Shown here: positions 1 to 64,000 of the stretch, piece after piece
Numbering within the stretch: the first letter of the stretch is position 1
Layout of the letters: the number at the start of each line of letters is the position of its first letter
Assembly (NCBI RefSeq): GCF_004027225.2
Contig: NC_044289.2
Location: forward strand, 9,527,761-9,591,760
Direction: 5' to 3'
Length of the DNA: 64,000 nt
Source: Strigops habroptila
Lineage: Eukaryota; Chordata; Aves; Psittaciformes; Psittacidae
Position numbers and translations under genes: made by a program
The notes under the pieces: generated by a model
Database searches by the model: none
The model's input: the letters and a program-made list of their open reading frames with translations, nothing else
What the model was told of the DNA's origin: nothing

Positions 1-456
1 TTCCTCTTATATGGAATATCAGGGCATATCGGCAGATAAAGATGACTAGAATGATGTACTGTTTTTTGTAAGCATTTTTACCTGCAGTTTATAGTATCTT
101 GCTGAAAACACCAGAGGGGAAAATTAAATGTTTGCCTGTTTCTTGAAATTGTATTTTATTAACTTATGTTTGCTACTGTGCTTAATTAACTTCAAATGTC
201 TGCCATTTTTCACAGAAGAAAGGAGGAGGATGTCACCTAGCTGCAATAGGAATAGAGAGTAGTCACCTCCAGAGAATGTGCTGAAACCCAGCATTAAAAT
301 CATGTGCAAGTTAAATGTATGAACAGCATACCCGCATTTGACTTGAACAGGAATAATTATAAACATGTACTTAACTTCAAGAGTCTCTAATTCATTGTTT
401 CAAAGGGATTTAAGACTAGACTTCATTGCAATTCTTGCACCAAGACTTTTTATTAC
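1..456. other. RNF114 intron, no exon found
   Basis: AT-rich sequence beyond the donor of RNF114 exon 4. I searched the minus strand for the next conserved block (CPIC...PWGDPNYRS...) and did not find it, so the remaining exons are off the left edge. Confidence 0.7.
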
Positions 457-571
457 CACTTGTTTTGCATCCATGCTGTGCAATGTTTTGCAGTGCTCAA
501 CTAGTCCTTCTTGATCAAAGTTTTTCTCGCTGCAATACGGGCAAGGAAAGGTAAAGCGATTTGGGAAGTTC
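457..571 (-). CDS. RNF114: RNF114 coding exon 4
   Basis: The acceptor ACCAG ends at 572 and the donor GTAATA begins at 456. The exon encodes residues 131-169, with a C2H2 finger (C141, C144, H157, H162) around FPCPYC and [10 protein letters not shown]. The reading frame is open to V169 and continues in an exon left of the window. Confidence 0.93.
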
Positions 572-3296
572 CTGGTTGGGGGAGAAAAAGAGGTTATTTA
601 TCACTGTAAGTAAGTTAAAAGTAAGAACTTTAGGATTCAATACTCAAAAATCACCAGCTCTTAAGAATATGAATTATTTAAAGCAATAACCTTATTCTAT
701 ACAATTAATCCAAGCTAATTTTAACAGTCTGTAAATTCCTAACAATAGTTTAAGGAACTCTTAATATCATCCAGATTTACATAGAATGATAGTTTTCTAC
801 AAATGTTGCCATTTATCACCCTTTTTTTAAATGCACAGGGTACCACCCAATATGCTACAACGCAGATGAGTGCCCTACAGTTCATTCCAACTTCCCTTCA
901 TTGTAAGTTACTATAATTAAGAGACAGAAAGATAAAGGTTTTATTTAAAAAATAGCTACTTTTACTGAGTGCCCTGATCTTAAAGATGTTTTGTGCACAG
1001 ACCACAGCAAAAAGCAGAATAGCTTGCCTGTGCACAGTCAGTTGCAGGATTAAGGCTTAGTTTTTCACTATGGGAAAGGATTAAAATGATTAATGCCCAA
1101 ACTGAGCAAAGAGGTGAGGTCTGCTTTTACTTCTTTGACAAAAAATTACAAGTATTTCCAGAGAAGAGCTACTTACCTGGTGTTGTGAAGTGGTTCTTTT
1201 GTTACAGCTTTCACACCTTCCATGATGTAATTCTGGTACTTTGAACAAGAAGCTGCATGGCTGCGCATCTTTGAGAGGTACATCTGTGCAGGCAACAGTT
1301 GCAGAGCAAGGTTAATTGAAACTACTTGCAGTTACTGCTACAGTTTTAAGTAGTAACACGTAAAACAAAGCAGCTTTCTGCAGACAGTGTTGAAGCAGGA
1401 AAACCCGAACACTTCAGCTGGCCAGGCGGAAAGCTTTGAGATTACAGATTAGTTAATCTGTAACTCTGCGGCCTGTAACATCTGACAAAAACAATGCTGT
1501 TCAGGACAGCAGTTTTCTTAACCTCTAGTATAGTGTTGTCTTGTCTGGGCTTAAACCACGACAAGCGTATATATACATAAAAATTGCTTCATCTAAAGCA
1601 AGTTTACCTGGTCTATGACAGTATATGGAAAATAATTTGGCTTTAAGTACAGATCTTGGTGTAGATTGATTGCTATTCGTTCAATCCCATTAACAAAAAT
1701 TAATTAAGGCACTACAGTTTTCTATCAGCTGGGATGAAGACGCTACCCAGAAACAGAGTGAAATTAACTGAACTCTTACCCTCACCTTAGTGTGCCTAAT
1801 TATCTTCTTGTTGTTTTGCCATCTGCTAAGATATTTTCTTATATACTCAATTAACACTAAGAAGCCCAAGCTTACAAAGAGAAAGGAACTATCAGGAAGG
1901 ATGCTGTACAGGGATTCAACATGCAGGATGCTAACAACCAACCATATGGAATACACAAACCATATAAGACAACTTTGACTCATAACCATTTCAAACAAAG
2001 CAAATAAGTTTATGTTTAAGAGCCAAAGAGATCACTACCTAAACCCCACGTCCACTGTTTAATTACAATGTCCATCCCACAGAGACATGCTCACAGAAGC
2101 AACTTCTGAACCAGTATTTTACTCTTATTTTAAAACCACTACCTTTCATCTGGAATTCACTTCCCGAAGAGGTCAACGATAAAAAAACATGGAAAGAAAG
2201 TCAACATTTGGGTGCTGCCTATATAAAATATCTCTAGCACTTATCAGAACAAGCATTTCAACCTGATTCTGCAGAAAGCTGAAGAGCAAGCACTTTATTT
2301 CCCTCTAAGCAGCACGGCTGAGCAGGCACACCTCATGCACTTTATTTCCAAATACTTTCATACTTTTTTATTGCAGCCATTGCAAGTGGTTTCTGTCGTT
2401 TCAATTTGCTTTTCCAAGTCCAGAGCTCTGCTCCCAGGCGACAGGGTACTGCGGCACACACCACACACGGGCTTTTTTGGCTTAAGACACTCCTGCAGGC
2501 ACGGAGTGCAGAAGCTGGGGTGGGAGAAGAAGAGCAGGTGGTGAGAACAGCCCTCCTGGACACCCAGCATAAGCATCCTGAGCCCTTCCATGCCTTCTGT
2601 GCTAAGTGATAATGGAATCTCAAGAACCTACGCCTAATAAACCAGCAGCCCGGTGACATTTGTGCGTGCAGAGAGGAGGAGGGTTCTAGGTCATAATGCT
2701 CAAATTTTGGACAATGCTCTTTCCGCTCCCCCCTTTTCCACATCTTTCCGAAGGGAACTGTAAGTGAAAGACTATTAGCCTTCTTCCTCCCTTTCATGCA
2801 AGCTCCAGGCCACTCATAAGACGCTGCTGAGAAGCAAAGCGACCAGCACAGCCCCCTTCTCCTCAGCCAGCGCCGCTTCACCCCATTGCCCCCGCCGGGA
2901 TCCTGCCCCCGCCGGGATCCAGCCCCCGCCGGGATCCAGCCCCCGCCGCGCAGGCAGCGGCCTTGCCCACCCTGCTCCCGAGGGAGCGACACGGAGCGTT
3001 GGGAGCAACCGATCCGCGGCTCTCCCCGGAGGCCCCGCAGCCCTGACCCGAGGGGTGCAGCTGCGGGCGCGGCTCCCGCTCCCCTCTTGCCGAGAGGGCC
3101 CCAAACCACCTCAGCACCCCCCCCCCCCCCCGCTCCTCGAACCCCGCCGGTCAGCCGCTCACACGTGTCCGCAGGGCACGCGCACCGGGCTCTCGTACAC
3201 CTCCAGGCACACGGGGCAGGTGAAGCGGGACAGCGGATCGTGCCGCTCCGGGGAGCGCGATGAGGACGCACCGGCACCGCCGGCGGCCACCGCCAT
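457..3296 (-). CDS. RNF114: RNF114, RING-type E3 ubiquitin ligase (first four coding exons; 3' end outside window)
   Basis: Four coding exons on the minus strand join in frame: 3163-3296, 2364-2514, 1177-1283 and 457-571. They give the first 169 residues of a family usually about 228 long. A C3HC4 RING is complete: C27, C30, C42, H44, C47, C50, C62, C65. A C2HC zinc finger follows (C89, C92, H104, C108), then a C2H2 finger (C141, C144, H157, H162). This order is that of RNF114 (ZNF313), an E3 ligase of NF-kB, RIG-I and cell-cycle control. The C-terminal ubiquitin-interacting part must lie left of position 1; I found no further exon in 1-456. The ATG at 3296 is the first in frame and has a good context (GAAG before, GCG after). 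SPATA2 lies head to head, as in mammals. Confidence 0.95.
572..1176 (-). other. RNF114 intron 3
   Basis: Bounded by donor GTAAGT and acceptor ACCAG. No coding, RNA or repeat feature recognised. Confidence 0.85.
1177..1283 (-). CDS. RNF114: RNF114 coding exon 3
   Basis: The acceptor GCACAG ends at 1284 and the donor GTAAGT begins at 1176. The exon encodes residues 96-130, including H104 and C108 of the C2HC finger and the family block [13 protein letters not shown]. Confidence 0.93.
1284..2363 (-). other. RNF114 intron 2
   Basis: Bounded by donor GTATGA and acceptor GCACAG. The open frames inside it on both strands match no family I know. Nothing else seen. Confidence 0.85.
2364..2514 (-). 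CDS. RNF114: RNF114 coding exon 2
   Basis: The acceptor CCCCAG ends at 2515 and the donor GTATGA begins at 2363. The exon adds 51 codons in frame, completes the RING (C47, C50, C62, C65) and starts the C2HC finger (C89, C92). The stretch [16 protein letters not shown] is the strongest family match. Confidence 0.95.
2887..2948. repeat. GC-rich minisatellite, 17-bp unit, about 3.6 copies
   Basis: The unit TGCCCCCGCCGGGATCC repeats with T/A variation at its first base, starting near 2887, 2904, 2921 and 2938. It lies in RNF114 intron 1 within the CpG island. Confidence 0.9.
3117..3131. repeat. C15 homopolymer
   Basis: Fifteen consecutive C on the plus strand in RNF114 intron 1, about 30 bases from the exon 1 donor. 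Prone to sequencing error and length variation. Confidence 0.9.
3163..3296 (-). CDS. RNF114: RNF114 coding exon 1
   Basis: Encodes residues 1-44 and two bases of V45. It carries the first six-residue block of the RING: C27-x2-C30 and the C42-x-H44 pair in VPCGHV. The donor GTGAGC follows at 3162. The N-terminal 20 residues are Ala/Gly/Ser-rich and poorly conserved. Confidence 0.95.
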
Positions 3297-6924: not shown

Positions 6925-9875
6925 GTAAGGCATTTGATGTGTGGCCATAGTGAGAACATGATTTGTGTTGCTTTCTTTTAACACACTTCATGTATTTCTT
7001 TTAAAGTCTTTTTTTCCCCCACCTATTAGCATGATGTATATGTTTGTCTCTATACAGTTGGTAAACAGAAGCCATAGGAAAATTGCAATGTAAAGTGTTG
7101 TGCTGGCAAGAATATCCCGAGAGCAGAAGTACAAGTACTATTTGCATTTATAATGTAACCATAGAATAGAGAAAGAGTTTATTTAAGGTTTTTGGTCAGC
7201 CTAGCCTGTTACAATATCTTAATTTCTACTTTGAAACGCTTTCACTAGGGTGAGTGGTCAAGTTGTGTTTAAGCTCACTCAAAGTTTGATTTTTGTCTTG
7301 GAACAGCTATTAATGGAGCACAAGTACTAAAAACCATTGCATGCTTTCAAGCGGATGCTTTGCTGGGGTTTCCACAAGTTATATGATGGTGGTAAAGGAA
7401 TTTCTCTAACAAGCATTGTTTCCAGAGTATCTTTTATCTGCTTGTCAGCTCTCAATTCATGAAGCTTTGATTTTAATGTACTTTCAAATTATTTATCTAT
7501 GCCAGGATCTCAGAGGGAAAAGTAGGAACTTGTACATTGCTCGGCTTGGGTGCTGGAAGTCAGATAGTGAGTTTTCAGCTGTTGATTTTTCTCTTTTACC
7601 TTTTCCTATATGCTTATTCAAAACTGCCACAGCATTTCAGTAATGAATGCTGCAGGTGACTTACAAGAACAGTTTTGATGCTTGAAAGCTGGATGAAAAC
7701 ACTGCTGGTACAGATGTCTGAAGTAATTTGTGGGTTGTGTGCTCTGTTTGTTTTTCTTAAAGATGCTGTTTCACTATTTAGCAAAGAATTTCAACATTAG
7801 TTCCCTAAAGGGAAACTATCTTTGTTCAAGTTCTCTATATAAATCTTTTTCATCTTATGCTTAAGTTCTGGCCTTTGAAATGTTGGTTGATCCATCGAGG
7901 ATAGCTCTTGATGCACTGCCAGTACTGACTTTGGTTGTGCAGTGTGGATCCAGTAGCTGTTCTATACAAAGATAGGATGGGCAGGCTGCTCTTGCCTCCA
8001 AGCTAAACCAGTTTGAATTGTGTTAAGAACATACCTCAGATATGCCAGATGCTAAGGATTTTTCAACTGCACAGACTCATTTTTGGGGGTTTTTGGGCAT
8101 TTTTAGTGTTTGACCTAATACAAAATTAAATGAAACAGGCATTTGAAACTGCAAAGTAATAGTACAGTGTATTTAAAACTGAATCGAAGAGGACTTTGAT
8201 ACTCCCACAGTGACTTAGCGTTCCTGTTACCTCTAGCTAGCCCCTGTCCAGGGACAATACATGAAATCTCTGATTTTTACCTTTCATGGTAGGCTTGCTT
8301 GTAAATGCAAACATATCTGGTATGCGTAAAAGTTAACGCCAGTGCATAGCACAGTGATTTAAATCAACAGGGAGGACATTATGCTAATCAGGATTTCAAT
8401 TTGAATGGAAACTCTCCTACTTTGAATTTGGCTCATGCAGAATTTCCATCTGCTGAGCAGGAGGGATGCAGAAATGGAGTTCATCTTGCCATGGGAGTTG
8501 CATGTGTTCACTGTGGTTATTATTCTATTTAATTATATGGTATCTGTCACTGAATTATCTGAACATCTAGTCCACCACTGAATTTGTAACCTAGTTTTCC
8601 TTTTATTTCCCCCCAACCCCTTAGACCTACACTGGACCCTTTGTTTATTATGTAAAGTCTGCTCTAACTGAAGATGATGTAAGGCAAATTTTGAACTACA
8701 TGGGCTATGTTCAAGAACTGGGAACAATGTATAAGCTCAAAGAGCAGGTTGATGCCATTCAAGTGAAAATGGTTTCATTTGAACTCTTTTTGGCCAAAGT
8801 GGAATGTGAGCAGCTTGTTGAAATTCACTTGCAAGTGAAGGATAAAGGTTATTCGGAGGTTGATGTCATAAATGAACGAAAAAATAGCACAGAAGATATT
8901 AGAGGCTGCTCAGAAGCCATGAAACGGCGTGTAGAGTGCAAAGAGAACTTGAACACTTCCATGGCACGAATGGTACTCCAGAAATCAGCAAGTGAACGGG
9001 CTTCTAAAGATTATTTCAAGCCAAAGGTGAGCAAGCCTTCTAAATCAGTGGACACATATGATAATTATTGGGAAAGTAAGAAACCACCTTTGATGAGCTC
9101 ACTGAGTCTGAGGAAAGAACCATTTTTAGTTGATGCAGAAGATGACATTAAAGATGAGATTATCCGTCCATCACCCTCTCTTCTGACAGTGTCAAGCTCC
9201 CCACACGGGTGTTCAGATGAATTCTTGCCAACTTCATCTCATCACAATGGCATGCTAAGAACAAATGTCCCTTACAGCTCCTATTTTTCTGCTCAAGAGG
9301 ACTTAGATTTATATACTGATTCCGATTCTAGAAGTATGTTAAACTTTAAAAGACAAGAAGCTATTAAGCCTGATGTATGGCTGTTAAAAAATGATGCCAA
9401 CCCTGTTTACCACAAACGCACCCACCTAGCCAAAGAGACAGCTTCCCTCAAGTGCCAAAACTGTGGCGTACCTTGTGGCACTTCTGTTTGCCAAAAGTGT
9501 GACAATCTGTACAACTCTAGGCAGGAATACCCAGCAGTGAAACAGAGCGCCTATTCAATCAAACCGCTTCCGAATGATGGCTTGCCTCCTGCGTCTTTAA
9601 GGGAGAAATCTCAGTACACATCACAGACTCAGAGTCAAGAGAGAGCTGCTCAGTTCAGTTCAAAATCCAAATCTTCAGGCACCTCGCGCTGCGGCTTTTG
9701 TAACCGGTCCGGAGCTGCAAACACTTGCACGTTTTGCTCAAAGGTCTCATGTGACACTTGCCTCAATGCTTACTATTATGATCCCTGCTGTAGAAAAAGC
9801 GAGCTTCACAGATTCATGCCTAACAATCAGTTAAACTATAAATCGTCCCAGCTGTCCCATGTAGTTTATAGATAG
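6607..9875 (+). CDS. SPATA2: SPATA2, adaptor linking CYLD to the LUBAC ubiquitin ligase (complete, two coding exons)
   Basis: Coding exons 6607-6924 and 8625-9875 join in phase 0 to give 522 residues, close to the usual 520. The N-terminal half (about 5-215) is the PUB-type domain that binds the CYLD deubiquitinase, with the diagnostic FLYPWKKEF and [12 protein letters not shown] on either side of the intron. The PUB-interacting motif that docks on HOIP is DLDLYTDS at 332-339, with Y336. Cysteine pairs occur at 383-400 (CQNC...CQKC). A zinc-binding cluster starts at C462 (CGFCNR...) and runs to the C-terminus, ending in SHVVYR. The protein recruits CYLD to TNF-receptor complexes and regulates cell death. 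An in-frame stop at 6592 fixes the start at 6607. Confidence 0.97.
6925..8624 (+). other. SPATA2 intron between coding exons
   Basis: 1,700-base intron bounded by GTAAGG and CCCTTAG. No gene or recognisable repeat. Confidence 0.9.
8625..9875 (+). CDS. SPATA2: SPATA2 coding exon 2 (terminal)
   Basis: Begins ACC TAC ACT GGA after the acceptor CCCCTTAG and runs 416 codons to TAG at 9873. It holds the second half of the PUB domain, the HOIP-binding motif and both cysteine clusters. Confidence 0.97.
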
Positions 9876-33395: not shown

Positions 33396-33770
33396 GGGGG
33401 GGCTTGGGTTGAGTGCTTGCTGGGCAGTGGGGCGCAGGGGAGGCCCGTGCTGGCCGTGCAGTGCAAGAGCTGTCCGGGACGGGGGGACGGGTGCGGGCAG
33501 AGCCCCGGGTGCGGGCAGAGCAGAGTCCCGGGTGCGAGCACGGCAGAGCCCGGGCGCGGCGCGGCGGGAGCGGAGCTGTCCGCGGCCGCCGGTGCTGAGT
33601 CGCGGTGGCAGCCGCCGCGCTCCCGCGGAACCTGCGCCCCCCTCCCGATCCCCGCCGCCCCGCGGAGCTGCCGCGGGAGCTCCGGCAAGTTTCAGGCTGC
33701 AGAGAGCGGAGCGGGGAGCGCCCGGGGCTCCTGTGGGAAAGGTAAGGGGGGCCCGGGCATGCCCGGGACT
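33396..33770 (+). promoter_or_regulatory. Isolated CpG island with a strong plus-strand splice donor
   Basis: About 370 bases of dense CpG, including GCGGCCGC at 33582-33589, stand alone in an otherwise GC-ordinary stretch. On the plus strand it ends in GGGAAAG|GTAAGG, with the donor GT at 33742. This is what a promoter plus noncoding first exon looks like. Imperfect GGGTGCGGGCAGAGC repeats lie at about 33487-33550. It could start a long noncoding RNA or an untranslated 5' exon of the opsin 8 kb downstream. Open frames across it are a by-product of GC content. Confidence 0.55.
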
Positions 33771-41774: not shown

Positions 41775-41862
41775 ATGGGAAATGAGTCCAACACCTCAGT
41801 GTTCATCTCCACCTTATCAGAGAGAGAAGACCTGATTTTTGGCACGCTCTATTTGGTCTTTG
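41775..41862 (+). CDS. OPN5L1: Opsin coding exon 1
   Basis: Encodes residues 1-29 and one base of G30, followed by donor GTAAGG at 41863. The ATG directly follows an acceptor-like TTTTGCAG, so the exon may begin exactly at the start codon after a spliced 5' UTR. An in-frame ATG at 41691 would otherwise add 28 residues. Confidence 0.85.
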
Positions 41863-44800
41863 GTAAGGAAAGACAACTTGTTATACCTGAGTCCCTGCTG
41901 TGGGAAGCCCAGGTGCCTGCCAGAGACAGTCAAGCCTTTTGTAGTCGCTGATGCTTCCAGAAATGTTCAGTCATTAGCAGCATAATCAAAATAGCCCTTC
42001 GCATATTGAAGGTGATTCGGACCTCAAGCTCATCCTTGCTTCCAGCAGAAGGTGCTGGTGAAGGTCCTGTGATTTGGAGTTAGTGGCATTGAATAGCCAG
42101 CAGGCAAAGCTGGGGGCTAGGATGTGCTTTGAGGTATCCTGGGCATGGTTGGTGTGGGCCAGAAGAGAACAATGGGCAAAGAAAAGCCTTCCAGTTTTCT
42201 TAGCCCTGAGCATTTTGTCTCCCAAGAGTTTTTCATGCCTGAGAGGATGGGGAACCCAAGGGACGCTCATATCACTGGGACCACGAGCAGTCCTCTAGGC
42301 ACCTACAGCTCCTAAGTGTTAGTACAGCTACTAAAATGTACTTAGTACAAATGTGAGACTAGCTCTGTGGGAAAAAAAGCCTCGTGAGGCTGGGAAGAAG
42401 GACAAACATCTCAGTGCTCTACCCTCCAGCAATCCCAGAGCCTCCAAAGCTCTGGATTTGGCCAGGTCCTGTGTGGGAATCCTGTTCCTGAGGAGAACTT
42501 CAGTGGCTTTGGGAGCTGGTTCTCACCATGGTGTTTAATTTACAGTCTAATCCACTAGGGAGAAACTCTCATCCCACCCAACCCATCCCAAGAGCAGCAA
42601 AGATTCCCCTTCTGAGGACAATGAAACCTCTTTTCAATGAAAGCACAATTACATAGTAAAAAAAGGCGAGAAAGCCCTTGTTATAAAATGTTAATCACTG
42701 CTGTTGTTTTAAATACATGAATAGCAAACAAAGAGCCTCCTTTTGTTTAGTCTGGATTTTCCTTCATCTTCATAATGCCTTTCTTGTTGTTTATTTTGTT
42801 ACCGCGATATTGGACAACACAGACTCACAGGAGTGACATTGCCAGGAAGAAATTAAACAGGCAAAGGGGCCCAGGTCCCTGGCCTCACATCAGAAGAGAA
42901 ATCACACAAAGCTCCCATTATTTATCTAGCTGGAAGGAAGTGCCCCCCTGGCTCCTTCCAGCTGAAAGAAGTGACTTAGGCCAGATCCTGCACCCGGAGC
43001 CCACTGCAGTCTCATCCCGTCACTGCCCTCCTACCAAACGCCTCTGTAGGACCTCAGGAAGGGGAAGGGATCAAATTCAATGTAAAGCAGCTCCAGATGT
43101 GCTCACAGAGCTCTGCAGGTCCCATGGGCTCCCCTGCTCAGTCCACTCCAGATGGGGAAGCCTGGAGCCCTTTCCACCCTCTGTAGACATCTCCGGTGTT
43201 TGCTTCCAAACATCTCAAGATGATCCTGGCTTCTTTCCCGGCTCTGTTACACACAGCACTGTTCCTCTGCCTTCTCCACAGGCATCGTGTCCCTCTCTGG
43301 GAACTCGCTGCTCCTGCTGGTGGCCTATCGGAAAAGGTCCATGCTGAAGCCTGCTGAGTTCTTCATAGTCAACCTGGCCATCAGTGACCTGAGCATGACG
43401 GTGACGCTCTTCCCCTTGGCCACCTCATCCTTCTTTGCACACAGGTACCTTGTGGAAGCAGCTCTGTACTGCCAAAGAGCCCTGATTGTGGATGGATGCA
43501 AGGGGTCAGTCTGGTGGCACTGGGGCACTGTGTAACCTCACAGACATCCATCCCACAGCAGGGTGCTTTGCTGTTCCCTGTCCCTTTGGTTTACCACTGC
43601 TGGAAATGGAATTTGGTGGTGGGTTTCTGAGCTGGCACCTATGCGGCGTGAGCACTGCAGCGGTGTGCACTGGCATGCATCACAGCACTCCCACACCCCT
43701 GGCTCCATCTGTGCTTGTCACTGGGATGCTCAGGGAACAAATTAGGGCAAGATCATGCCCCTTTTTGGGGCAATTGGTTGCTGGTATCCGTGCAATCTGT
43801 TGCAGCCACCCTATGTGGGGCCAGCTTTGCCAGTGTGGGACCGGCAGCTGGGAAATACCCAGCCTTCCTTCAGAGCAGGGACCGGGAGGAACATCCCCAT
43901 CCAGGGAGTGGCAGGGGCTGCCAGCCATCGCCCTGGGCGAAGGGGCAGGGCTGGGGTTACCACAGGCTTCCCCTTGCAGGTGGCTGTTCAACCAGGCGGT
44001 CTGCACCCTCTATGCCTTCTGCGGGGTCCTGTTCGGGCTGTGCAGCCTCAGCAGCCTGACGGTGCTCAGCACGGTTTGCTGCCTGAAGGTCTGTTACCCA
44101 GCATATGGTAAGTGCTGGGTGTGTTATCTGAGCTATGCTTATACCCCTCTCTGTTAACATAACCCATTGTGTTTGATGGGCCAGATCCACCTCTTCTGGG
44201 AAGACTCTGCCCCAGGGCAGCCTATTCCCAGTCAATACACAGGGTCATAGGAAAGTTTAGGTTGGAAAAGACCTTTAAGAGCATCAAGTCCAACCATTAA
44301 CCCAGCACTGTCGAGTCCACCATTAAACCATGTCTCTTCCACATCTACACAGCTCTTAAATACCTGAACAGCCTGTTCCAATGCTTCCTAATGTCCAATC
44401 TCAACTTCCCCCAGCATAACTGGAGGCCATTTCCTCTTATCCTATTGCTTGTTACCTTTCAGGTAGTTGTAGAGAGTGAGGAGGTCTCCCCTGAGTCTCC
44501 TTTTCTCCAGGCTAAACAGCTCCAGGTCCCTCAGCCACTCCTCATCACACTTGTGCTTCAGGCCCTTCACCAGCTCCGTTGCCTTTGTCTGGACATGCTC
44601 CAACACATCAGACTTTAGCTTAGGCTAGAGCAGACTCTGCCTCTGGGAAGCCACAAGCTCTGGCACTGCAAGAAGAGCTGCTTTCCCTTGTCACTGGTGG
44701 GAGAGCCGTAGGCCAAATGTATTTAATTCACTGATATAATTAATGCAGGAGGGCTGGGTTTGCAGTGTTGCAGCTCACTTCTGTAGCCCTGTTTTTACCA

Positions 44801-47800
44801 GGACTTCCTCTGCAGAGCTAATGTGATGTTTGCAGCTCTAAGCAGCTCTTTGGAGAGGGCATGCACTGCAGAGAGCACCTGAGGGAGCGAGGGGACCCAG
44901 GGATGTCCCCTACACATTTACAGCTCTTCCTATTTGGAGCTGCTTCTTAATTTCCTCAGCTCAGCTGCTAATCCTCCATCTAGCATGTATAGACTTTGGA
45001 TTGAAGGCCAAAATTAGAACTAAAATGTGAGATCAAAGATGACAGTTTGATTTGCAGATCAGCCCCCAGGGTACATCCTCACCCCTCTCCCATGGCTGAC
45101 TGCCCTGAGCCTGTGGCTGTTGCCAACCACCAACCTGCTTTGTGCAGCAGCTCACAGCGCCTCAAGGATGATGCTGGAGCACAGGCACCTCGGTTATGTG
45201 CCAGCACAACAGCTCAGGAGATCACTAAAAAGGTGGAAGGAAAGATAAAGATAAAAGTGGGCTGCTAAAAGGCAGCCCAGGTACAGTGGCTTTTCCCTGC
45301 GCAGGTTCTGCTCTAGATTAGCTGGCAATTGGCAGCCTGGTACATTGAGTTTATGTCCCGGTGACACCCCTGCCCATTTTCCATGAGGAAATGACTAATT
45401 TCAATGTGTTTTTAATTGCTTGGTTTCAAAGAAAATGTTACTCCTATGTACGGCTGGAGATACAGAACTTTATACTGAGCTTTTAGAGGATCAGGCAGTT
45501 TTAGATTTGACAGGGGATGGGACAAAAAGGAAGAAACCCCTCCTCCCTCAGGATTTCAGTCTGCCAGAGAGGAAAAGGTCCTTCCAATGACAGTGTCTGG
45601 GATGGTGCTGAGCAGACCAGGCTACTGCAGCCAGGCAGCCCCCCCTCCCAGCTGCCCACAGGGCCACGGGTGGTAAGGCATTGGAACAGGCTGCCCAGGG
45701 CCGTGGTGGAGTCACCATCCCTAGAAGTGTTCACACACCATGTAGATGAGGCCCTCCGTGACATGGTTTAGGTGGTCTTCGTAGTCCTGTGCTAATGGTT
45801 GGATTTGATGATCTTAAAGGTCATTTCCAACCTGGTTGATTCTATGATTCTATGTCCCCCCACATGCCACCAGCAGCCACACGACGTCCAGCAATTCCTC
45901 TGCAAGCTGAGAGAGGCTGCACCGCTGGTCCTCAATCCTGAGTGGATTGTGGCAAACCCTTTATCTTTCTCTTGGCTCCTTGTTCTGGCCACCCCAAGGG
46001 GCTGGGGGGATACCTGTGCACCCCGGAGCGCTTGGGTGAGCATTGGCATGGCTCTGCCTGCTCCTGCTCAGTGGCTCTGTCCATGTCCCATGGCAGTTGG
46101 CCTCATCTCCGGTGCCTGGGCAGCTCAGGGTCACAAACTCCACTTTCTGCTCCCCTTTGCCCATGGGAACCCATCCTCATCCTTATCCCTCTGTCATAGG
46201 CAACAAGTTCTCTCCCTGCCACGCCGGAGTGCTGCTGCTGTGCATCTGGGCATATGCCCTCATGTTTGCCACAGCCCCCTTGGCCGAGTGGGGCAGCTAT
46301 GGCCCCGAGCCCTATGGGACAGCCTGCTGCATCATGTGGAAAGCCTCGAGCAGGGAGGCCACGCTCTACATCCTCGCCCTCTTCATCTTCTGCTACCTTC
46401 TCCCCTGCCTCCTCATCCTCGTCTCCTACTCGCTGATCCTCTGGAGGGTGCGGGTGTCCCGGAGAGCCGTGCGGCAGCACACATCCCCCCAGCGCAGAGC
46501 CCACAGCGTGCACAGCCTGGTCGTGAAGGTAGGGGAGGGCTCGGGGTGCTGCGGGGTCTGGGGGTGTCTCCAGCCCAGCACTCCATGAGCAGGTGAATGT
46601 GACGGGACCCCTTCTCCAGGTGTTTGTGTCAGTAATAACATATTTCTTCTCATTTAAAGCCATCAGATGGAGGAGTTTTCATTTTAAATTACACTGGGAA
46701 AGATCGTAAAAGGAGCTTGATGAGTCATTGTTCCCCAGACTGCAAGCTAATACTATAAATTAACAAGGGTATGCCAAAAAAAAAAAAGCGGATATCCTTT
46801 AAAAAAACCCCAAATACAAAAGAAAGCAGCTTGCAAACCTGGCCTTGAAGGAGGTGTTCGTGTCTGCTTAGAGGAGGGGGTCTGAGCATGGCCCATTTCC
46901 AGAGCCTCTCGGTTGGTCTGCACACTGGCACACAGATTGATGGAGGGATGTTGAGTGCTCCAAAGGGCTGCTGCTCCCAAGCTGGCCTGGTCCCAGCCGG
47001 GCCCCTGGGTGCTTTGTACCCATCTGACACCCATCGGGCTGAGGAAATTCCCAAGTTTCCCAGGTGGGACAGGGTGCGAGTTGCCTGAAGTGAGCACAGA
47101 TTTATGCACCACACTGGGCAATGCTGAGTCACTGCCCTGATGTGTGACACACCGATGCTCCAGTGGAATGGGTCCAGAAGGGTCAGCTCCTTTCCCCTGG
47201 GATGCGACTGACTGCTCGGGGTCTCGTTGCACATGGCTGAGTTTTGGGGGGTTCAGCACCCCGTAAGTGCCACAGGAGGCTCATGGCACCACCATCTCCA
47301 TCTCCTTCTGTTCCAGCTGAGCGTTGCCGTGTGCCTGGGGTTCCTGGCTGCCTGGACCCCTTACGCTGTCGTTGCCCTGTGGGCAGTGCTGGGTGACGCC
47401 AGCCAAGTGCCAGCGCTTGCCTTCGTGCTGTCAGCCGTCTTTGCCAAGTCCTCGACGCTCTACAACCCCCTGGTGTACCTGCTCTTCAAGCCCAACTTCC
47501 ACAAGTTCCTCTCCAAGGATGTGGTGCTCTTCCAGGCCATGCGTACCCTGCTCTGCTGCTGCTGCCCCAGCGCTGCGCTCCAGCCCTTCCCATCCCCAGG
47601 CTTTGGGGGCCACCCTGGGGCTTGCAGGAACTGCAACGACACCTTTGAGTGCTTCAGTAACTACCCCAAGTGCCACAAGCCCGCGCAGGCGCCCGGCTCC
47701 TCGCCCCGCTGCGCTCCCCTGGCCATGCTGGCTGATGGGGCTGCGTGCCAGCCACGGCTGAAGAGGACGGTGCAGGTGATGGTGCTTGTCACACGGAGAA

Positions 47801-47871
47801 GGTCGGGCCTGAGCGCTGTGAACGTGGTGGGAGAAGCTCTGCCATCGGATATCATGAAAGACCTTCTCTGA
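41775..47871 (+). CDS. OPN5L1: Neuropsin-family (OPN5-like) opsin, OPN5L1 type, complete in five coding exons
   Basis: Exons 41775-41862, 43282-43444, 43980-44107, 46200-46528 and 47317-47871 join in frame to give 420 residues. Seven membrane helices are visible at about 21-48, 57-80, 90-113, 134-155, 180-207, 237-260 and 269-292. K280 in [10 protein letters not shown] is the retinal Schiff-base lysine and NPxxY is N286-Y290. C92 and C169 form the usual disulfide, and E163 is at the bovine-181 counterion site. The bovine-113 site is Y95, as expected in this group. The E/D-R-Y site is V116-C117-C118. C170 (bovine 188) is the cysteine reported to form a retinal adduct in OPN5L1. N3 and N6 are N-glycosylation sequons, and C316-C319 may be palmitoylated. 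The family is certain; the OPN5L1 subtype is inferred from C170, and OPN5L2 is the alternative. Confidence 0.88.
41863..43281 (+). other. Opsin intron 1
   Basis: 1,419 bases from GTAAGG to CCACAG. No gene or named repeat inside. Confidence 0.85.
43282..43444 (+). CDS. OPN5L1: Opsin coding exon 2
   Basis: Acceptor TTCTCCACAG, donor GTACCT at 43445. Encodes residues 30-83 and two bases of R84: the rest of helix 1 ([16 protein letters not shown]), the first inner loop with KPAEFF, and helix 2 (NLAISDL). Confidence 0.93.
43445..43979 (+). other. Opsin intron 2
   Basis: 535 bases from GTACCT to CTTGCAG. Open frames cross it by GC chance; removing it restores the conserved HRW at residues 83-85. 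Confidence 0.88.
43980..44107 (+). CDS. OPN5L1: Opsin coding exon 3
   Basis: Acceptor CCTTGCAG, donor GTAAGT at 44108. Encodes R84 to G127: disulfide C92, helix 3, and the altered V116-C117-C118 triplet followed by LKVCYPAYG. Confidence 0.93.
44243..44615 (-). mobile_element. CR1 LINE 3' fragment, antisense
   Basis: Starts with TAGGTTGGAAAAGACCTTTA, then TCAAGTCCAACC. It continues through the reverse complement of the usual CR1 end (GGAGACCTCC, GCTGTTTAGCCTGGAGAAAA), finishing at GACATGCTCCAACACATCA. The terminal 8-bp repeat is decayed and the middle is shortened. Confidence 0.88.
45660..45855 (+). mobile_element. CR1 LINE 3' fragment, sense
   Basis: Reads GCATTGGAACAGGCTGCCCA, GTGGAGTCACCATCCCT and GATGATCTTAAAGGTCATTT. 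It ends in two ATTCTATG units at 45839-45854, a typical avian CR1 3' terminus. The origin of the 140 bases before it is unclear. Confidence 0.9.
46200..46528 (+). CDS. OPN5L1: Opsin coding exon 4
   Basis: Acceptor CTGTCATAG, donor GTAGGG at 46529. Encodes G127 to K236: helix 4, the second outer loop with E163 and C169-C170 (PEPYGTACC), helix 5 (FCYLLPC), and a basic third inner loop (SRRAVRQ, QRRAHS). Confidence 0.93.
46529..47316 (+). other. Opsin intron 4
   Basis: 788 bases from GTAGGG to GTTCCAG. Includes an A12 run near 46779. No other feature. Confidence 0.88.
47317..47871 (+). CDS. OPN5L1: Opsin coding exon 5 (terminal)
   Basis: Acceptor TTCTGTTCCAG. Encodes residues 237-420 and TGA at 47869. 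It holds helix 6 with W249-x-P251-Y252, helix 7 with K280 and NPLVY, helix 8 (FKPNFHKF), the C316-C319 cluster and a long cytoplasmic tail of about 100 residues. Confidence 0.93.
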   Translation: MSVAVCLGFLAAWTPYAVVALWAVLGDASQVPALAFVLSAVFAKSSTLYNPLVYLLFKPNFHKFLSKDVVLFQAMRTLLCCCCPSAALQPFPSPGFGGHPGACRNCNDTFECFSNYPKCHKPAQAPGSSPRCAPLAMLADGAACQPRLKRTVQVMVLVTRRRSGLSAVNVVGEALPSDIMKDLL

Positions 47872-55423: not shown

Positions 55424-55531
55424 CTATAGCAGCTCTTGCTCATCATCTTCAGATCCTGAGGGTCCTTGTCGTACCTCTTCATACCACTTGTTTGTGAGGG
55501 TTTTCATCTGTATGCGCCCATGATGCAAGTC
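55424..55531 (-). CDS. SLC9A8: SLC9A8 terminal coding exon
   Basis: Acceptor TGCCTTAG. Encodes DLHHGRIQMKTLTNKWYEEV, RQGPSGSEDDEQELL and TAG. Confidence 0.96.
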   Translation of the reverse strand, partial: DLHHGRIQMKTLTNKWYEEVRQGPSGSEDDEQELL

Positions 55532-58500
55532 CTAAGGCAAAAGCAAACCAGAAGAGTTTGTTACTTAGCTACAGTGCTACTTGTGTCTTAGAGCAAAAGA
55601 GAAAGACTGGTCTAATTTATTCCTTAGGAAACAATCCACTCCTGGTCTCTAGGCAGGCAAAGCAATTCTGTTTCCTACTAGAAAATACTTATCAAGTGTT
55701 CAGTCAGTGATTATTTCCACAGATGATATTTTTGATGACAGGTATTTTTATACCTGTATTTTCTAGTCAGTCCTGCTCTGTGGGTTTCAACAACTCTGAT
55801 GCTGTCTGGATGGCCTGGCTCTGACTCTCTTCATGTTGCCAGGACCAGTGGGATGCTTGTGGCCTGCTCTGGTGATTCATGTACTTACATTTCTAGCCTT
55901 TGGTTGCAATCTGGATGGCAGCCTGTGCTTTTGGCTACCAACTATGAATCAGATGCTTACTCTGGTTTCATGATTCCTTTTTGGTTTTGCAAAATATGTC
56001 TTTAGCTTTTGTAGGAAAGTGCTGAAAGTGTTCTTTTGAAAAGAAAGGTACAAAACAAAAGGAAAAATAGTATGTTTGGCAAGTCTAGGATGATGGAATG
56101 TGCACACTTTACACAAATTTATCAACTCCACAGCAAAAATGCTTAATTCATGGCAAACTGGAAAAACTGTGGAAAAAAACCCCCAAACCAATGTGGCTAA
56201 GGAGTCCCAGGTTTCTGAGGCATGGGAGCGAAAATGGCAGAGTATTTACACCTCTCAGAGCCACCCCGTGTTAAGTTACATGTTCAGTCAGGTGTCATTT
56301 TGCATTTACAGCTTCAAAGTCTTAGTGTCCCAGTGAAGAAGTCTCAAAGGTGAAGGCTGCAATGCTGGTGTGTCTTTCCCAGAAATAAACTGCACTCTGC
56401 AGACAAATCCCAGCTCCAGAATTCACAGGATCATCTACAGTAAAAGGCAGGAACTTTGCATGACAGCACTTGAAAAACTCCGTGTAAGTGGCTGCAGCTT
56501 TTTCTAGCAACAGTAATAACTAGTAACTCCTGATACTGTTCATGGCACTCCGCAAGATTAAAGGCAATAAATCCATACACGTTTTAAAGTTTAACTGTGG
56601 TAGCCCTGAGAAATGCTCATTTAATCCAACCTGCAATTTCACAGTGCAGCTTTTCATTACAGCTGCTCTACATATGCACGAGTAATATATTAGATGGTTC
56701 ACTCCTCCTAATGTACAAGTTGCACAGCTACACTATGAGCCTTGAGTGGTACAGAGAGAAATGACAACCAACTCTACCACAGGTTTTCTTCTAGAAAACA
56801 AGAAAAACTTACTTCTTGTGTGAGTCTTCTGGTAAAGAAAGGGTTCAAATACTTGGCGTCAAGCCACATAAACCCTTTGAGGTCCTGGCGTTTTATGTAC
56901 TGGGCTTCATATTCCTCCTCTGTGAGCTCTGATAAATGTTCAGATTCTATGGTGTTTCCCTGGAAAGATCAAAAATATTAGAGTAACATGAGAAATGTTG
57001 CAGTCATCCCCTTGGCTTGCTCAGCCCCCTGCTCTGTGCTCTCCCTTCTTACAAACAATTCCCATGCTGGAAAAACATGGAAATTATCACTTCAGCCTAC
57101 CAGGGCTTATAGCTATATGAATCTGTCCAGCTGTTGATTCCCAGAGCCACTGAGCTTCCCTTTTCATGCTGAAAGGTAAAAGACCTCACATGTTCCATGT
57201 TTTGTATTGCTACTACTGCTGAGAACAGATTTCTAGTGTGCAGGTTTTCTCTTGTGAGCTGAACAATGATTTTGTCCAGCAAGCCACACTAACGTCATTG
57301 TTTTACTGAAAACAAGCCCTGTGTCAGAACGCTCGCTATCCCTGTGCTCTTCCTATACACACCTCCCTGCATGGACAGAGTAAGGTAGTTCTGAAGACTG
57401 CAAGCTTTTTGAAACCTCATGCCAGAAGGAGCTGTTCTTCAGATCCTACAGAACAATACCCTGTGTGTATTGTTCTATGGTTTGGGGAAAAACAGGCAAA
57501 TGCCCTGGGATACCTCATGTATTCCAGTCTTTTGCACGTGAGGTTTCAGACTGGCTGTTAGTTTTCTCCAGTACTCTTGCTCAGACAGAAACTGCTTTAA
57601 CATAAAAGCCAGTCAGAGAGGTGCTGTTGATACCACCTTCTCATGGCCTTTGCTTTGGCTTTTTCGAATTTCCATCTGCCTTTTATGATTAATTCATGAC
57701 TCACGCTGTACTAGCTACTTTCCCTCTGTATATGACTCAATCCTCTATCATCTGCTTTACACTTTTGCAGGGGTTACTTTAATTTGTGTGGCTCAAGTTA
57801 TAATTAGGCTGAGTTAAGAGACTCTCTCTCTTCCCTTTGTCCAAACAGTTATTTTGTGTAAACACTACTCAAGCTCTGTCTTTGGGATATGTTAAAATTA
57901 TATCGCTTGGCTTTGTCCCACCACCTTGGCTTTTTGCACTGCTTTCATTCTCCTTTTTAGTACAATGAAAATCAGAGATCCTCTGAATAAAAAACCCAAA
58001 CAAACCATCTTCTCAGTCTTGCTAAGATTGATGTCCTTCTTGTTCCTCTTGCGCGCTTTGGAGTCCTCAATGTCAATCAGCCTGATGAGGGGCATGGTTC
58101 CTCCACCCAGCAGCAGAATGGTGAACAATACTATGATGATTGTTGTTGTCCCAATGAGTTGCCGCTTCTCTATTGGTTCCAAGCCCAAATGGAGGCTGAG
58201 GGCATAGGGAATTGCTCCACGTAAACCTTATCAGAGAACAGCAAATCAATGAAGGGTGAATCAACAGGTACATTGATCCTCAGCACCCTGATAAACTAAC
58301 AGGAATTCCCTATCTTTGAAAGATTTTTACAGTCCTACCATGCTCATTCATCTACCATTTGGTTACCACCCTAAAACGAGTCTAAACTCTTCAGATACTG
58401 TTGTTCAAAATGTGAAGTTGCTAGACCTAGAAAGAAAAGCAGACTGCTTGCAGAAAAGCTTCAGTGGGGATCACCACTGCATAGCCCTCTAGCACAAAGG

Positions 58501-61500
58501 GGGAAGAGAACTTATCCATTGCACTTCAGTTTGAGAGCAGGCAAATGCTCAGTTGAGTTTTGCTCCACAGACAGAAAACTGGTTCCTCCCAGAGTTGCCC
58601 ATGCAATGAAAAAGACACAACATTTTTTCAGGTTCTCCATAATTTGAGCTTTAACTTACCACTAAACCACATGATAAACATCATTTTGGGGGTGATTTTG
58701 TGATCACGGAAAAAGTTGAGCAGGTAGGAAAGTGGGAAAATGTTCACTGCTCTACCAAACAGAACAAGTACCTGAAAAACAGAAATAAAAGCAAAAGACC
58801 ATTTGATGTGTTACATTCATGCAGGCCCCAGTTGCATCTGGTTTGCACAGGGTAAGGCAAATGTGCTCTTTCCGCTCACAAGTCTTGCAAGCAGGAGCAC
58901 TGCTAAGCTAATATGAAGAAATCTCTCAGCACAGGTCAATGTGGAATTGAAGTTTTTAAACATTTTGTCTGCTTAACAGAAATTAAACCAGACTTGTCAC
59001 TGACAGATAGCAGATACTACTTTACTTATAATAAATAAATGAAACCCAAGAGGCATTCCAGGGAGACCAGGAATTACTTTGGGTAAAAGTTCTCCTCAGT
59101 TCAGTCAGTTCAACTCCTTTAATCATTCCCTTGGTGCAACACTAAGAGGCAATAAGATATTTCTATTGCCTCCCCATGGACCAGTTCCTCGGAGGAAAAG
59201 GCCAGAAGCCAAACAAACAGCATGTAATCCAGTTCCTCAATGCTTCCCTGGGTACGGTTATAAAATATACCTCCCATTGAAATGATGTTTTGAGAGGAGA
59301 AAAAAATGCACTATTGATTTAATGGCAGACAATTAACAAATATAGTGAAAACTTTAACTCAGAAAAGCAAAGGTTTTCACAAACAAGCTTTTAAGCTCCA
59401 CCACAAACAGACCTTGATAAGATAAATATCCTAGAATGAGTCATCCTTGAAGGGCTGTGCTGTTTTCCTTTATGAATCACCCCAAAATTACACAGTTTGC
59501 ATTATGCCTGTGAGGGCAATGCTACATAGAAGGAAGTGTCACACCTTAGATAGATAAAGAAGTTGGGTGTAATGCAGCGAGAGCAGTTCCCCATGCTGAT
59601 ATCACCATCTGTGAATTGCAGGTAACAATTCTTGCCGTAAACCATATACTAAAATGCACTAGGATACGTTATTGTATGTGACTGGAAGTGGATTCACATT
59701 CCCCTCTTTTGACTGTGCAAACATACTTTTCATATCTGTATTATACAATTACAATAGCAATAGACGTAGGTAATCTCCATGTGAAACATAATTCAAAGTG
59801 CCACCACATAAAACTACGTTAAATATGGAATGAAACAAAAAGAATTAAGAATGGAGTCAAAGAATGAATACACATTAGAGAAGGTTTGAGTAAAGGCTTC
59901 CTCTGAAGCAGGTGAGCTCAGAGTGAAGAAGTGGTGTATGGACTAAACTGGTTAATGTAAAAAAGCTGCAATAATTTATGAGAGGGAGACTCAAAAGCTG
60001 TAGTACTGGGAGCAGAGTTTGATACCAGTTTACACTGTAGGTTCTATGAAGCTATGTAAAAACTCAGCATTGCTTTCTGGTAAAGTAAAATACCGGAATA
60101 AAGCGCCATGTATAACAATCTCAACACCTTTTGAGATTTATTTTAATAAATCTAATAGGGTCAAAAGCAAGATTCTGTTACTTATAATCTTCTACAGAAG
60201 GGCTTCAAAATATCAGCAAACTGGAATTCCTGAAAGACAGATGTACACTAAAGTGCTGAGAACAAGAATAATAATGCTATTGGTGAGAGTTAACATTGTA
60301 CAATATATAAAAATATAAAAGTATTTTCATAAACCCCTCTAAAACATAACTATTCTAAAATATACTAACTGTAAGTTATTTCCCCCTGCCCCAATACCAA
60401 AAACGCATCTGTAAAAGTATGGAAGAAAGTAAATACCTACTATGCACCAGATGACAAAGGACATTTCAAACTTGTGAGGAAAACTAAAAATTGACAGGCC
60501 AAGAAAAGCAAAAACGCATGTTTCTGAAAAAGAGAAATCACATATTAAATAAACAATTATATAAAACCTTTTCTACTCCTATTGTAAGTTATTACATACA
60601 GTACATAAAACAGTATTTCCTGACTTTTGAATGCATGAAATAGGAACAAATGCCATTATGCAAAGACCAGATTCTTCCACTTGCTGCCAGTGGACAGCAC
60701 TTTAGTCTTTGTGTGTGTGTGTGTAGGCTTTTTATTTTACTTACTGTAAATTACTAGTAAGTATGAACAAAGGTAACAAAACGTTGTTCTAAAGACTGGG
60801 GAATTTTTAACTTGAGGAATATAGGACAAGCTGCAGAACACAAGTTACAGGAGGGACTACTATGGACTTTGGTAGCTTTGAGTTAGATTCTATATGAAAC
60901 TGAAATGTCAGGCACAGTCTCATATACTGCAAGCTGAACATGTTTATAAAATATTCAATTCATTAAATTCTTGTAAGTGGCAGCAGTTCATGACTTTCTT
61001 TGTAATAAAATACTGCACTGATCTAACGACCCTCGTATATTCTAATAACCTCTAGAAGAGATGTTTGCAGATCTGAAATAGTACCACCACTGTACAATGA
61101 TTACAGTAATCCAAATATTTTATTTCCACAGCATCAACCCATTACCATCAGAGAATCACAGAGTCAAGCTGTTTCATCAGTTCACTGCAGTCCCAGCAAG
61201 GTAGGCTCCTTATCATAATGGCAGTTCAAAATAGGATGGTTTTGGACAGATCGTAGCAGCATGAGACTTTGGGTACTGGCTACTTACATATGCATGTTCG
61301 AAACAGTATCTTAAATAACTCCTTTACAGTGACTTGCATGAATATGTGCTTTTTTAGCATTTGTAATAGAGCAATATCAAACCCTGGTGAGCTACTGTGT
61401 TCAGGTGATAAGTGGTTAAGTTTAGTTTGCATCAAGGTCACTCCCTGACTACGTTCCAAATGCATTTTCCTATGAACAATACAGAACACATTCATGAAAT

Positions 61501-62115
61501 CCCCTAGAAAAACAAGATATATTTGTAATAAGCATGTGATTTCTTTGAAACTTTGGTTTGCAAAAGGAAATGGAAAGGCTCTGGGACTCTGAGCTGCTTG
61601 TATCTCTACTTACAAAAACTTCTTCTCAATTTGAAGCTATTATTAAAATAACATTAAAAAATACTGCTAAAAATCCATCTTCTAAACCTAAAAATAGACC
61701 AGAGGAACATAGGAGTCAGAGATCTCTATCTGGTTGTCAGTCTTGTGGCAAATCTTCGCAGGAGCCTGCAGGCTGGGAGAGAGAGATTTACTGTATGTTT
61801 TATCCAATATGGCAGGAAAGGTGACTTCTGACTGCATTCTGGCCTCCACTAGGAATTCTTCTCTTAAAGGCATGTATCACTGACATACAGATGGCTAAAA
61901 GAAAATTCATGTCTCTGCTGCTCCCATCAGAATCACCATTTCAGGCAAATATATTTTTAAGCTGTTAATATTAGGTATTAAGAGCAGGTAGCACCTACCA
62001 CACATGAAAGCAACAGTTCTCAGTGTCTGCTGCATTAAAATCTGTGTAACCGGGGACAAGTTATGGTGCGTATAGTGAGACATCACGATGCCAGAGAAGA
62101 GGATTGCCATGATAC
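55424..62115 (-). CDS. SLC9A8: SLC9A8, Na+/H+ exchanger NHE8 (last six coding exons; 5' part outside window)
   Basis: Minus-strand exons 61999-62115, 60441-60523, 58660-58771, 58006-58226, 56813-56959 and 55424-55531 join without a frame break. They give the last 261 residues of a family of about 580. The first encodes IMAILFSGIVMSHYTHHNLS, followed by membrane helices. The NHE core motif WFSGLRGAIPYALSLHL spans the 58660/58226 junction. The cytoplasmic tail ends in SGSEDDEQELL. NHE8 exchanges Na+ for H+ in the Golgi, endosomes and apical membranes. Exon phases match throughout and the last codon is followed by TAG at 55426. The N-terminal half of the transporter lies right of the window. The gene converges on the opsin. 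Confidence 0.97.
55532..56812 (-). other. SLC9A8 last intron
   Basis: GTAAGT to TGCCTTAG. No gene or named repeat seen. Confidence 0.85.
56813..56959 (-). CDS. SLC9A8: SLC9A8 exon
   Basis: Acceptor CTTTCCAG, donor GTAAGT. Exactly 49 codons, from GNTIESEHLSELTEEEYEA to NPFFTRRLTQE. Confidence 0.96.
56960..58005 (-). other. SLC9A8 intron
   Basis: GTTTGT to CTTTCCAG. Nothing recognised inside. Confidence 0.85.
58006..58226 (-). CDS. SLC9A8: SLC9A8 exon
   Basis: Acceptor CTGATAAG, donor GTTTGT after ATG. Encodes LRGAIPYALSLHLGLEP, EKRQLIGTTTIIIVLFTILL and the start of the cytoplasmic tail (NKKDINLSKTEKM). Confidence 0.96.
58227..58659 (-). other. SLC9A8 intron
   Basis: GTAAGT to CTGATAAG. Nothing recognised inside. 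Confidence 0.85.
58660..58771 (-). CDS. SLC9A8: SLC9A8 exon
   Basis: Acceptor GTTTTTCAG, donor GTAAGT. Encodes VLVLFGRAVNIFPLSYLL to MFIMWFSG, with phase 1 at its 3' end. Confidence 0.96.
58772..60440 (-). other. SLC9A8 intron
   Basis: GTAGGT to GTTTTTCAG. AT-rich; no gene or named repeat recognised. Confidence 0.85.
60441..60523 (-). CDS. SLC9A8: SLC9A8 exon
   Basis: Acceptor TTTTTCAG, donor GTAGGT. Encodes ETCVFAFLGLSIFSFPHK to SFVIWCI, a membrane segment. Confidence 0.96.
60524..61998 (-). other. SLC9A8 intron
   Basis: GTAGGT to TTTTTCAG. AT-rich, with a short GT microsatellite near 60710-60724. Confidence 0.85.
60710..60724. repeat. (GT)n microsatellite
   Basis: About seven GT units in an SLC9A8 intron. 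Confidence 0.85.
61999..62115 (-). CDS. SLC9A8: SLC9A8 exon (first in window)
   Basis: Acceptor TTATCTATAG ends at 62116; donor GTAGGT begins at 61998. Encodes GIMAILFSGIVMSHYTHH to RTVAFMC, plus one base of the next Glu. Confidence 0.96.
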
Positions 62116-64000
62116 CTATAGATAAAAATGTGGCAGTTAACAGAAGAAGAACAGCTTGTACTCTGCAAATATTTGTGTTTTTAGCTCTTACTAACACAAA
62201 AGCTTATGAAGCAATAAGTGAGGTTTCTATTACTGTTGTTATTCATTACCGGTCTCATTCCACTGATTATATTAAATATCAGGAGGTCAAATATAGGTCA
62301 CTTGCAAGCTAGAATAAATCCCCATTATGTCACGTTTTCCCATAAAATTGAGGAACTAAAAAGCTACTTCTTGAGTATTTTTTCCTGCTTTTCACTCTCC
62401 TAACAGGAAGAGAGACATCAAAAGAGAATAAAACCAATTTGAGAACAGCGGGGCTAGAGAACTGTATGAGTCAGTTCTCGCAAAAAGCGTGTCCCTCTTT
62501 CCTACCTGCTCATCAGCCAGCCCCAATCACTCCACCAGAAGTAGAATGAGACCATGTGAATCCACTCCCGTACGGTGCACCACATTTGATACCATAGAAA
62601 ATTGGGAATGAATAACACACACAGGTGTACCTCCAATTTTCTACCAATCTGAGAATCAGAAAAGCTATTGAGGCTTGAGAATTCAGGGCAAAAATTACCT
62701 CTGTAAGAATCACAGAATCATTTACGTTGGAAAAGGCCTTTAAGATCACTGAGTCCAACCATAAGGAAAGTAAAGTGTGTTATGTAGGGTCTGCAAGGAA
62801 TGCTACCTGCCACAGAATGTCCTTTGCCTCCAGCAGAAAGGGTCACCAAACCATCTGCTTATGTTACTACAGAGATTAGTCTCAGGTATCAACAATGGGG
62901 AAAGCCACCAAATTAGAGTTCAGTTGCCCTAATGGCATGCAAAGCATGGGGAGAGGTGTAGCAACTGATATCACAGGCCAGAACAGCTACCTCAGATTTC
63001 ACTGTATTTCACAAATCTTTGTGCTAGGTATTTTTTCCATCTCCCTTGCTCCTCTGCTCTTGGTTATTTATAGGAAGAATCTGAATATCAACCTCTTTTG
63101 CTAACAGCTCAAGATGTATCATAGACACTGTCAGTTTTTCACTGTTCATAGGGAGCTGGGTATCTTAAAAGGAAGTTCTAAACATTTCCATGCTTCCTGC
63201 ATAGAATTACACTTGCGAAGGATGCCATTTGGGATAATGGTTAGGGTTGTGAAAAAAATTAGCAGCCCCCTTGAAGAACAACTACAGTATTCCTTGTGAG
63301 GAAATAACAAACCAAAATTGACAATATAACCCAGCAGAAATCAACTGCAGTGCAGCTCTCGGGAGGACAGGATGACGTGAGATGCCTGCTTTGCCCAAAA
63401 CAAGGGAAGTTTAATAGACTAGAAGTGTTTGGCTGGAGCTGTGTGCCCAGGAATGGCACAAATAAACACAACTGGAAGGATTAGAATAGCTGAGGTACAG
63501 TCAAAAGAATCCTTTGTCTGAAACACAGAGGTGACCTGCCTAAGGTCATTCAAAGTTTAGATTTCTTGAGAAGTCATTCTTGAAGGCGCTTGAGAAATGA
63601 GAGAGGTTGTCTTTATAAATAAAATTACACAGAATCTTTGTCATCCTGAGAGTAAATAACTAGGAATCTTACTGTAAATTCTTTTTCATTGTACACCAAC
63701 ATGCAGATGTGTTGGTTATATAATGCAATGGCCCTGCAATTCTGTAATATTTAGTATAATTTTATATTAATAGGCAGTATAAATTAGAAATAGAACAGAC
63801 CACATGCTGAGACCCTTTCTCACAAGGCAAAACTTGTTTTTAAACAGCAATGCAAATATTTTAACATATCAAACTGCTTGTTTAGGTTTCCTATAATTTC
63901 ATTGCCCTGCGTAAGTGTTGGCTTATACACACATTCGGATTGTATAGTGGGCAGAATGGAATGTTTGCGTTAGGATTATACATCTTGATTGTGTAACTAC
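62116..64000 (-). other. SLC9A8 intron running off the right edge
   Basis: Upstream of the acceptor at 62116. I looked for the preceding conserved block (FAYLPYGL-EGISLS) on the minus strand and did not find it. Contains one CR1 remnant. Confidence 0.75.
62704..62764 (-). mobile_element. CR1 LINE 3' tail, antisense
   Basis: AGAATCACAGAATCATTTAC, then GTTGGAAAAGGCCTTTAAGA and GAGTCCAACC: the reverse complement of the avian CR1 3' end, with two degenerate 8-bp units. Confidence 0.85.

Follow-up and report, generated by a model that had tools for sequence, protein, structure and literature searches.

An opsin gene between SPATA2 and SLC9A8

The window analysed here, a stretch of 64,000 nucleotides from the genome of Strigops habroptila, carries an opsin gene of five coding exons on the forward strand (41775-47871) which, when rebuilt from the sequence and joined, give a coding sequence of 1263 nucleotides specifying a protein of 420 residues. 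The exons, along with the genes lying to either side, are as follows (positions written in the form Lys296 follow the numbering of bovine rhodopsin):

454..3281, minus strand: RNF114 coding exons, outer upstream flank, beyond SPATA2; four tblastn pieces found with a provisional sequence of the human protein
8625..9875, plus strand: SPATA2 coding exon, within an open stretch, upstream flank; Pfam PF21388 (PUB-like domain), 3.7e-47
41775..41862, plus strand: opsin coding exon 1; the first 29 codons plus one base, covering the N-terminus and the beginning of TM1; donor GTAAGG; phase 1
43282..43444, plus strand: opsin coding exon 2; TM1-TM2; donor ACACAG/GTACCT; ends in phase 2
43980..44107, plus strand: opsin coding exon 3; TM3, Cys110, and Val-Cys-Cys replacing DRY at residues 116-118; ends in phase 1
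46200..46528, plus strand: opsin coding exon 4; TM4, loop 2 (Glu181, Cys187, Cys188, Met190) and TM5 (Tyr212); ends in phase 0
47317..47871, plus strand: opsin coding exon 5; TM6, TM7 with Lys296, NPLVY, Cys-rich helix-8 region, tail of ~115 residues; stop TGA
55427..62116, minus strand: 3' coding exons of SLC9A8 (NHE8), downstream flank; six tblastn pieces at 82-100% identity to a provisional sequence of the human protein

Pfam and tblastn bear out the position given in the first-pass annotation, which had placed an opsin between SPATA2 and SLC9A8; the former lies upstream on the plus strand, the latter downstream on the minus strand. RING and zf-Di19 Pfam matches fall on two of the four RNF114 pieces, and with four of the SLC9A8 pieces joined together a Na_H_Exchanger match is obtained at 9e-19; taken singly against Pfam, two of the SLC9A8 pieces have no match and one falls under the curated cut-off, and the N-terminal part of the protein (query residues before 320) has no match within the window. 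The order and strands of RNF114, SPATA2 and SLC9A8 agree with those of human 20q13, and we take the SPATA2-SLC9A8 region of chicken to be on chromosome 20. Across the open-access literature searched, no paper was found that links SPATA2, SLC9A8 and an opsin, nor was this genomic address for the gene found in print.

The sole stop codon in the opsin frame is the terminal one. Open frames by themselves are weak evidence, since after shuffling of the bases a single exon of the gene is still open in 1.4% to 31% of cases; chance as the origin of these frames is nevertheless excluded by a match to Pfam 7tm_1 across residues 36-290 (E=3.1e-40), by 554 distinct PDB sequences that match at E<=0.001 (the best being squid rhodopsin, at 5e-38) and by GC contents of 0.54, 0.48 and 0.81 at codon positions 1, 2 and 3, a pattern typical of coding sequence. 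A search of NCBIfam returned no match, and with a provisional human OPN5 sequence as query the matches in the window were confined to the opsin exons and adjoining intron edges. A pseudogene reading was also rejected, the 420-codon frame and its splice sites being without defect. The earlier claim that all five exons preserve frame, splice sites and the retinal lysine holds up, in that the rebuilt borders are exact, all four introns run from GT to AG and a lysine stands at residue 280; judged on its sequence, the gene is intact and probably functional.

Neuropsin affinity, group residues and a predicted cycle

Lysine 280 is equivalent to bovine 296 and sits within the seven-helix receptor of the rhodopsin family recognised by 7tm_1, which identifies the protein as an animal opsin. 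To place it further, a tree was built of eight rows, consisting of the window protein and seven comparators (provisional sequences of six opsins from human or cattle, and a squid fragment), none of which was dropped. The window protein pairs with human OPN5 (neuropsin, Opn5m), a UV-sensitive bistable opsin, with support of 95/94, and human OPN5 is also the nearest of the seven by identity across the core (37% over 257 columns). The earlier note had offered a position outside the neuropsins as one outcome that would overturn its reading, and the pairing with OPN5 goes the other way, with comparators that are mostly provisional sequences and include one other neuropsin. Support is good for two of the five inner branches, and human RGR sits on a long branch, such that we regard the eight-row placement as a lead with numbers attached, short of a formal placement; as only one other neuropsin was included, the tree does not separate neuropsin groups such as OPN5L1 and OPN5L2.

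That separation is better approached through individual residues, and of the four published marks of OPN5L1 (the DRY motif and positions 167, 188 and 212) three are present in the window protein. Val-Cys-Cys occupies residues 116-118 (bovine 134-136); an altered DRY motif is described as characteristic of Opn5L1 proteins, the chicken version being Val-Cys-Cys (excerpts of PMC12579811). Position 188 is Cys (residue 170), which is conserved throughout the OPN5L1 group (PMC5871776), and position 167 is Phe (residue 149). At positions 167/188/212, Opn5L1 is reported to have Phe or Tyr/Cys/Phe as opposed to Trp/Thr/Leu in Opn5m, with 167 and 188 also said to differ between Opn5m/L2 and Opn5L1 (accessible sections of PMC8766551). 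The exception is position 212, where the window protein has Tyr (residue 192) in place of the Phe reported for Opn5L1; this is still aromatic, unlike the Leu of Opn5m. Position 212 is counted among the residues surrounding retinal, and Phe212 is a trait of the members compared rather than a formal definition of the group, going by the same sections of PMC8766551. Human OPN5, in the provisional sequence used here, has DRY, Thr188, Trp167 and Leu212, whereas the window protein has Val-Cys-Cys, Cys, Phe and Tyr.

Might the gene then belong to another neuropsin group, i.e. OPN5L2/opn8, opn6 or opn9? None of these is in the tree, and Tyr212 is unlike the residue reported for OPN5L1; we consider the idea very unlikely indeed, however, given that 167 and 188 are both of the Opn5L1 type where Opn5m/L2 are reported to differ (PMC8766551, in the sections cited) and that a changed DRY motif is said to typify Opn5L1 (PMC12579811, likewise in excerpt), the residues of opn6 and opn9 lying outside this comparison.

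A second departure is found at bovine position 190, which is Met in the window protein (residue 172, exon 4, window 46334-46336), and Asp or Asn in the seven comparators; chicken Opn5L1 has Asp (PMC5871776). As read from the sequence, either Tyr212 or Met190 could affect the colour of the protein, its stability or the time it takes to recover. Because Met190 and Tyr212 deviate at otherwise steady positions, they might also be taken as signs of relaxed constraint, in an OPN5L1-group gene that is intact yet drifting toward loss in this lineage. This we think unlikely, as it sits poorly with 420 codons free of stops or frameshifts, clean splice sites, a third-position GC of 0.81 and a core of opsin residues that is kept but for the DRY change usual in the OPN5L1 group.

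It is highly probable that the window gene encodes an intact opsin of the OPN5L1 group (Opn7), which by analogy with the characterised chicken protein would be a receptor for all-trans-retinal, Gi-active in the dark, inactivated by light and self-resetting. A reverse, self-resetting photoreceptor is predicted here, instead of an ordinary opsin, because of the combination of Val-Cys-Cys for DRY with Cys188, two features to which the first-pass annotation had not drawn attention; and since the protein retains Lys296, Glu181, Cys110, Cys187 and Cys188, we infer the same cycle as in chicken Opn5L1. In such a cycle the apoprotein would take up all-trans-retinal at Lys296, with Glu181 as the counterion, and the dark all-trans form would activate Gi even though the protein has no DRY motif. 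On absorption of a visible photon, the retinal would isomerise to 11-cis and signalling would stop, after which Cys188 would add to the polyene chain of the retinal and the bond would rotate thermally; the Cys188 adduct would free all-trans-retinal over a period of hours, turning the receptor back on by itself. We speculate that in the brain and retina the protein may serve as a dark sensor or a ‘time since light’ sensor; all that is said of its photochemistry, Gi coupling, expression and role is inferred from published studies of the chicken protein. For zebrafish Opn7b, whose sequence homology with chicken Opn5L1 is given as ~42%, constitutive Gi/o activity in darkness that is turned off by blue/green light has been reported (excerpts of PMC8302595).

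Which copy: OPN5L1 or opn7b/OPN5L1b

The presence of Opn5L1 in chicken and the absence of the group from mammals are already published (PMC5871776), and Opn5L1 is among the genes sought in owls (PMC5629816, in excerpt). OPN5L1 being known from birds and other non-mammals, any novelty may lie in which copy the window gene is. The naming of, and reports on, the neuropsin family are inconsistent. Opsin 7a (= Opn5L1a) and opsin 7b are given as separate groups in the accessible part of PMC9596584, which refers for this to a survey of 2017, and the names 7a-d used in teleosts may differ in meaning from 7a and 7b in tetrapods. The first-pass annotation had called the gene OPN5L1-type; the group marks (Val-Cys-Cys, Cys188 and Phe167) sustain that assignment, but the label OPN5L1 itself may name the wrong copy.

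For the chromosomal comparison we take turkey chromosome 3 to correspond to chicken 2 and human 8q, and Xenopus laevis 9_10 to be the frog counterpart of human 20q, home of SPATA2, SLC9A8 and RNF114; the pairs SNAI1/SNAI2, CEBPB/CEBPD and KCNB1/KCNB2 presumably mark the same two regions as the opsin pair proposed below. OPN5L1 is listed on turkey chromosome 3 in a table row of PMC6828962, a placing at odds with an address between SPATA2 and SLC9A8 if that region is indeed chicken 20, such that the window gene and chicken Opn5L1 likely differ in chromosome. In Xenopus laevis, opn7a is on chromosome 6L and opn7b, a member of the Opn7 group like the window gene, is on 9_10 (L and S), according to excerpts of PMC10547888.

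At the level of sequence, chicken Opn5L1 (AB368181; elsewhere opn7a/Opn5L1a) resembles the window protein in Val-Cys-Cys, Cys188, Lys296, Glu181 and the core of loop 2, the second extracellular loop. Over this loop 12 of 16 residues agree with chicken Opn5L1, as against eight of 16 with the provisional human OPN5 sequence, the Opn5L1 sequence compared being one short chicken peptide and its other marks taken from published descriptions; the four that differ are residues 177, 180, 190 and 192. Two chicken Opn5L1 UTR primers matched the window no better than did shuffled primers, a weak result given that UTRs diverge between bird orders.

Two readings follow from these data. One is that the window gene and the chicken OPN5L1 already characterised (opn7a/OPN5L1a) are direct orthologues, with the difference in chromosome a matter of annotation or mapping; this is a real possibility, though less likely than not. 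The identical Val-Cys-Cys triplet is in its favour and speaks against a second copy; Cys188 and Phe167 are in keeping with it too, and no second avian gene of the OPN5L1 group is named in the accessible portions of the literature searched. It has to contend, on the other hand, with the turkey listing (PMC6828962, table row), with the four unlike residues of loop 2 and, weakly, with the primers. Alternatively, the window gene is the second copy, the ohnologue opn7b/OPN5L1b, for which we put the chances at even. The chromosome data, loop-2 differences and UTR-primer result, taken together, favour this second copy; allowing for annotation error and for uncertainty between species is what holds it at an even balance. 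Were it correct, birds would have two intact reverse-photoreceptor genes, OPN5L1 in a human-8q-like setting and OPN7B/OPN5L1b in the human-20q-like SPATA2-SLC9A8 interval, the two having arisen in the genome duplications at the base of the vertebrates, a scenario that we hold to be just as evenly poised.

None of the open-access papers found in our search treats synteny and chromosome of opn7/opn5 opsins in mammals. Within their accessible parts, a mention of OPN5L1 in the chicken SV paper PMC9632285 comes with no position, PMC3279408, PMC12670784 and PMC11283901 yielded neither position nor residue data for OPN5L1, and the synteny given in PMC4864311 covers Opn5m2 only.

If the two-gene reading is true, birds would have in this second copy an uncharacterised dark sensor, in which Tyr212 and Met190 may shift colour or the time to reset. 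The second-copy assignment would also provide two natural bird reverse photoreceptors differing at positions 190 and 212, from which the determinants of colour and of dark-recovery time might be sought, and would mean that tissue maps of chicken OPN5L1 cover only one of two genes. The fixed address between SPATA2 and SLC9A8 shows where relics of the gene might be sought in monotremes, marsupials and placental mammals, by which its loss could be dated.

The ends of the gene and intron 3

The ATG at 41775 is a candidate start only, the 5' exon and the true start depending on transcripts. An acceptor-like TTTTGCAG lies directly before it, and upstream no stop interrupts the opsin frame over 33 codons (window 41676-41775), with a second in-frame ATG in this extension. 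Some 8 kb 5' of the opsin is a CpG-island-like stretch (window 33201-34100; maximum observed/expected CpG of 0.79) at which no gene was recognised, and which could act as promoter for a non-coding RNA or for a 5' exon not seen here.

At the other end, the tail of ~115 residues (window 47500-47871) is cysteine-rich, with CCCC after helix 8 and more cysteines beyond; that of human OPN5, in the provisional sequence, is shorter. Intron 3 contains an inverted repeat pair, at 44237-44321 and 45771-45855, whose members are 75% complementary, and which we take, from their motif, to resemble a pair of oppositely oriented ends of CR1-type LINEs, as would suit a bird or another sauropsid.
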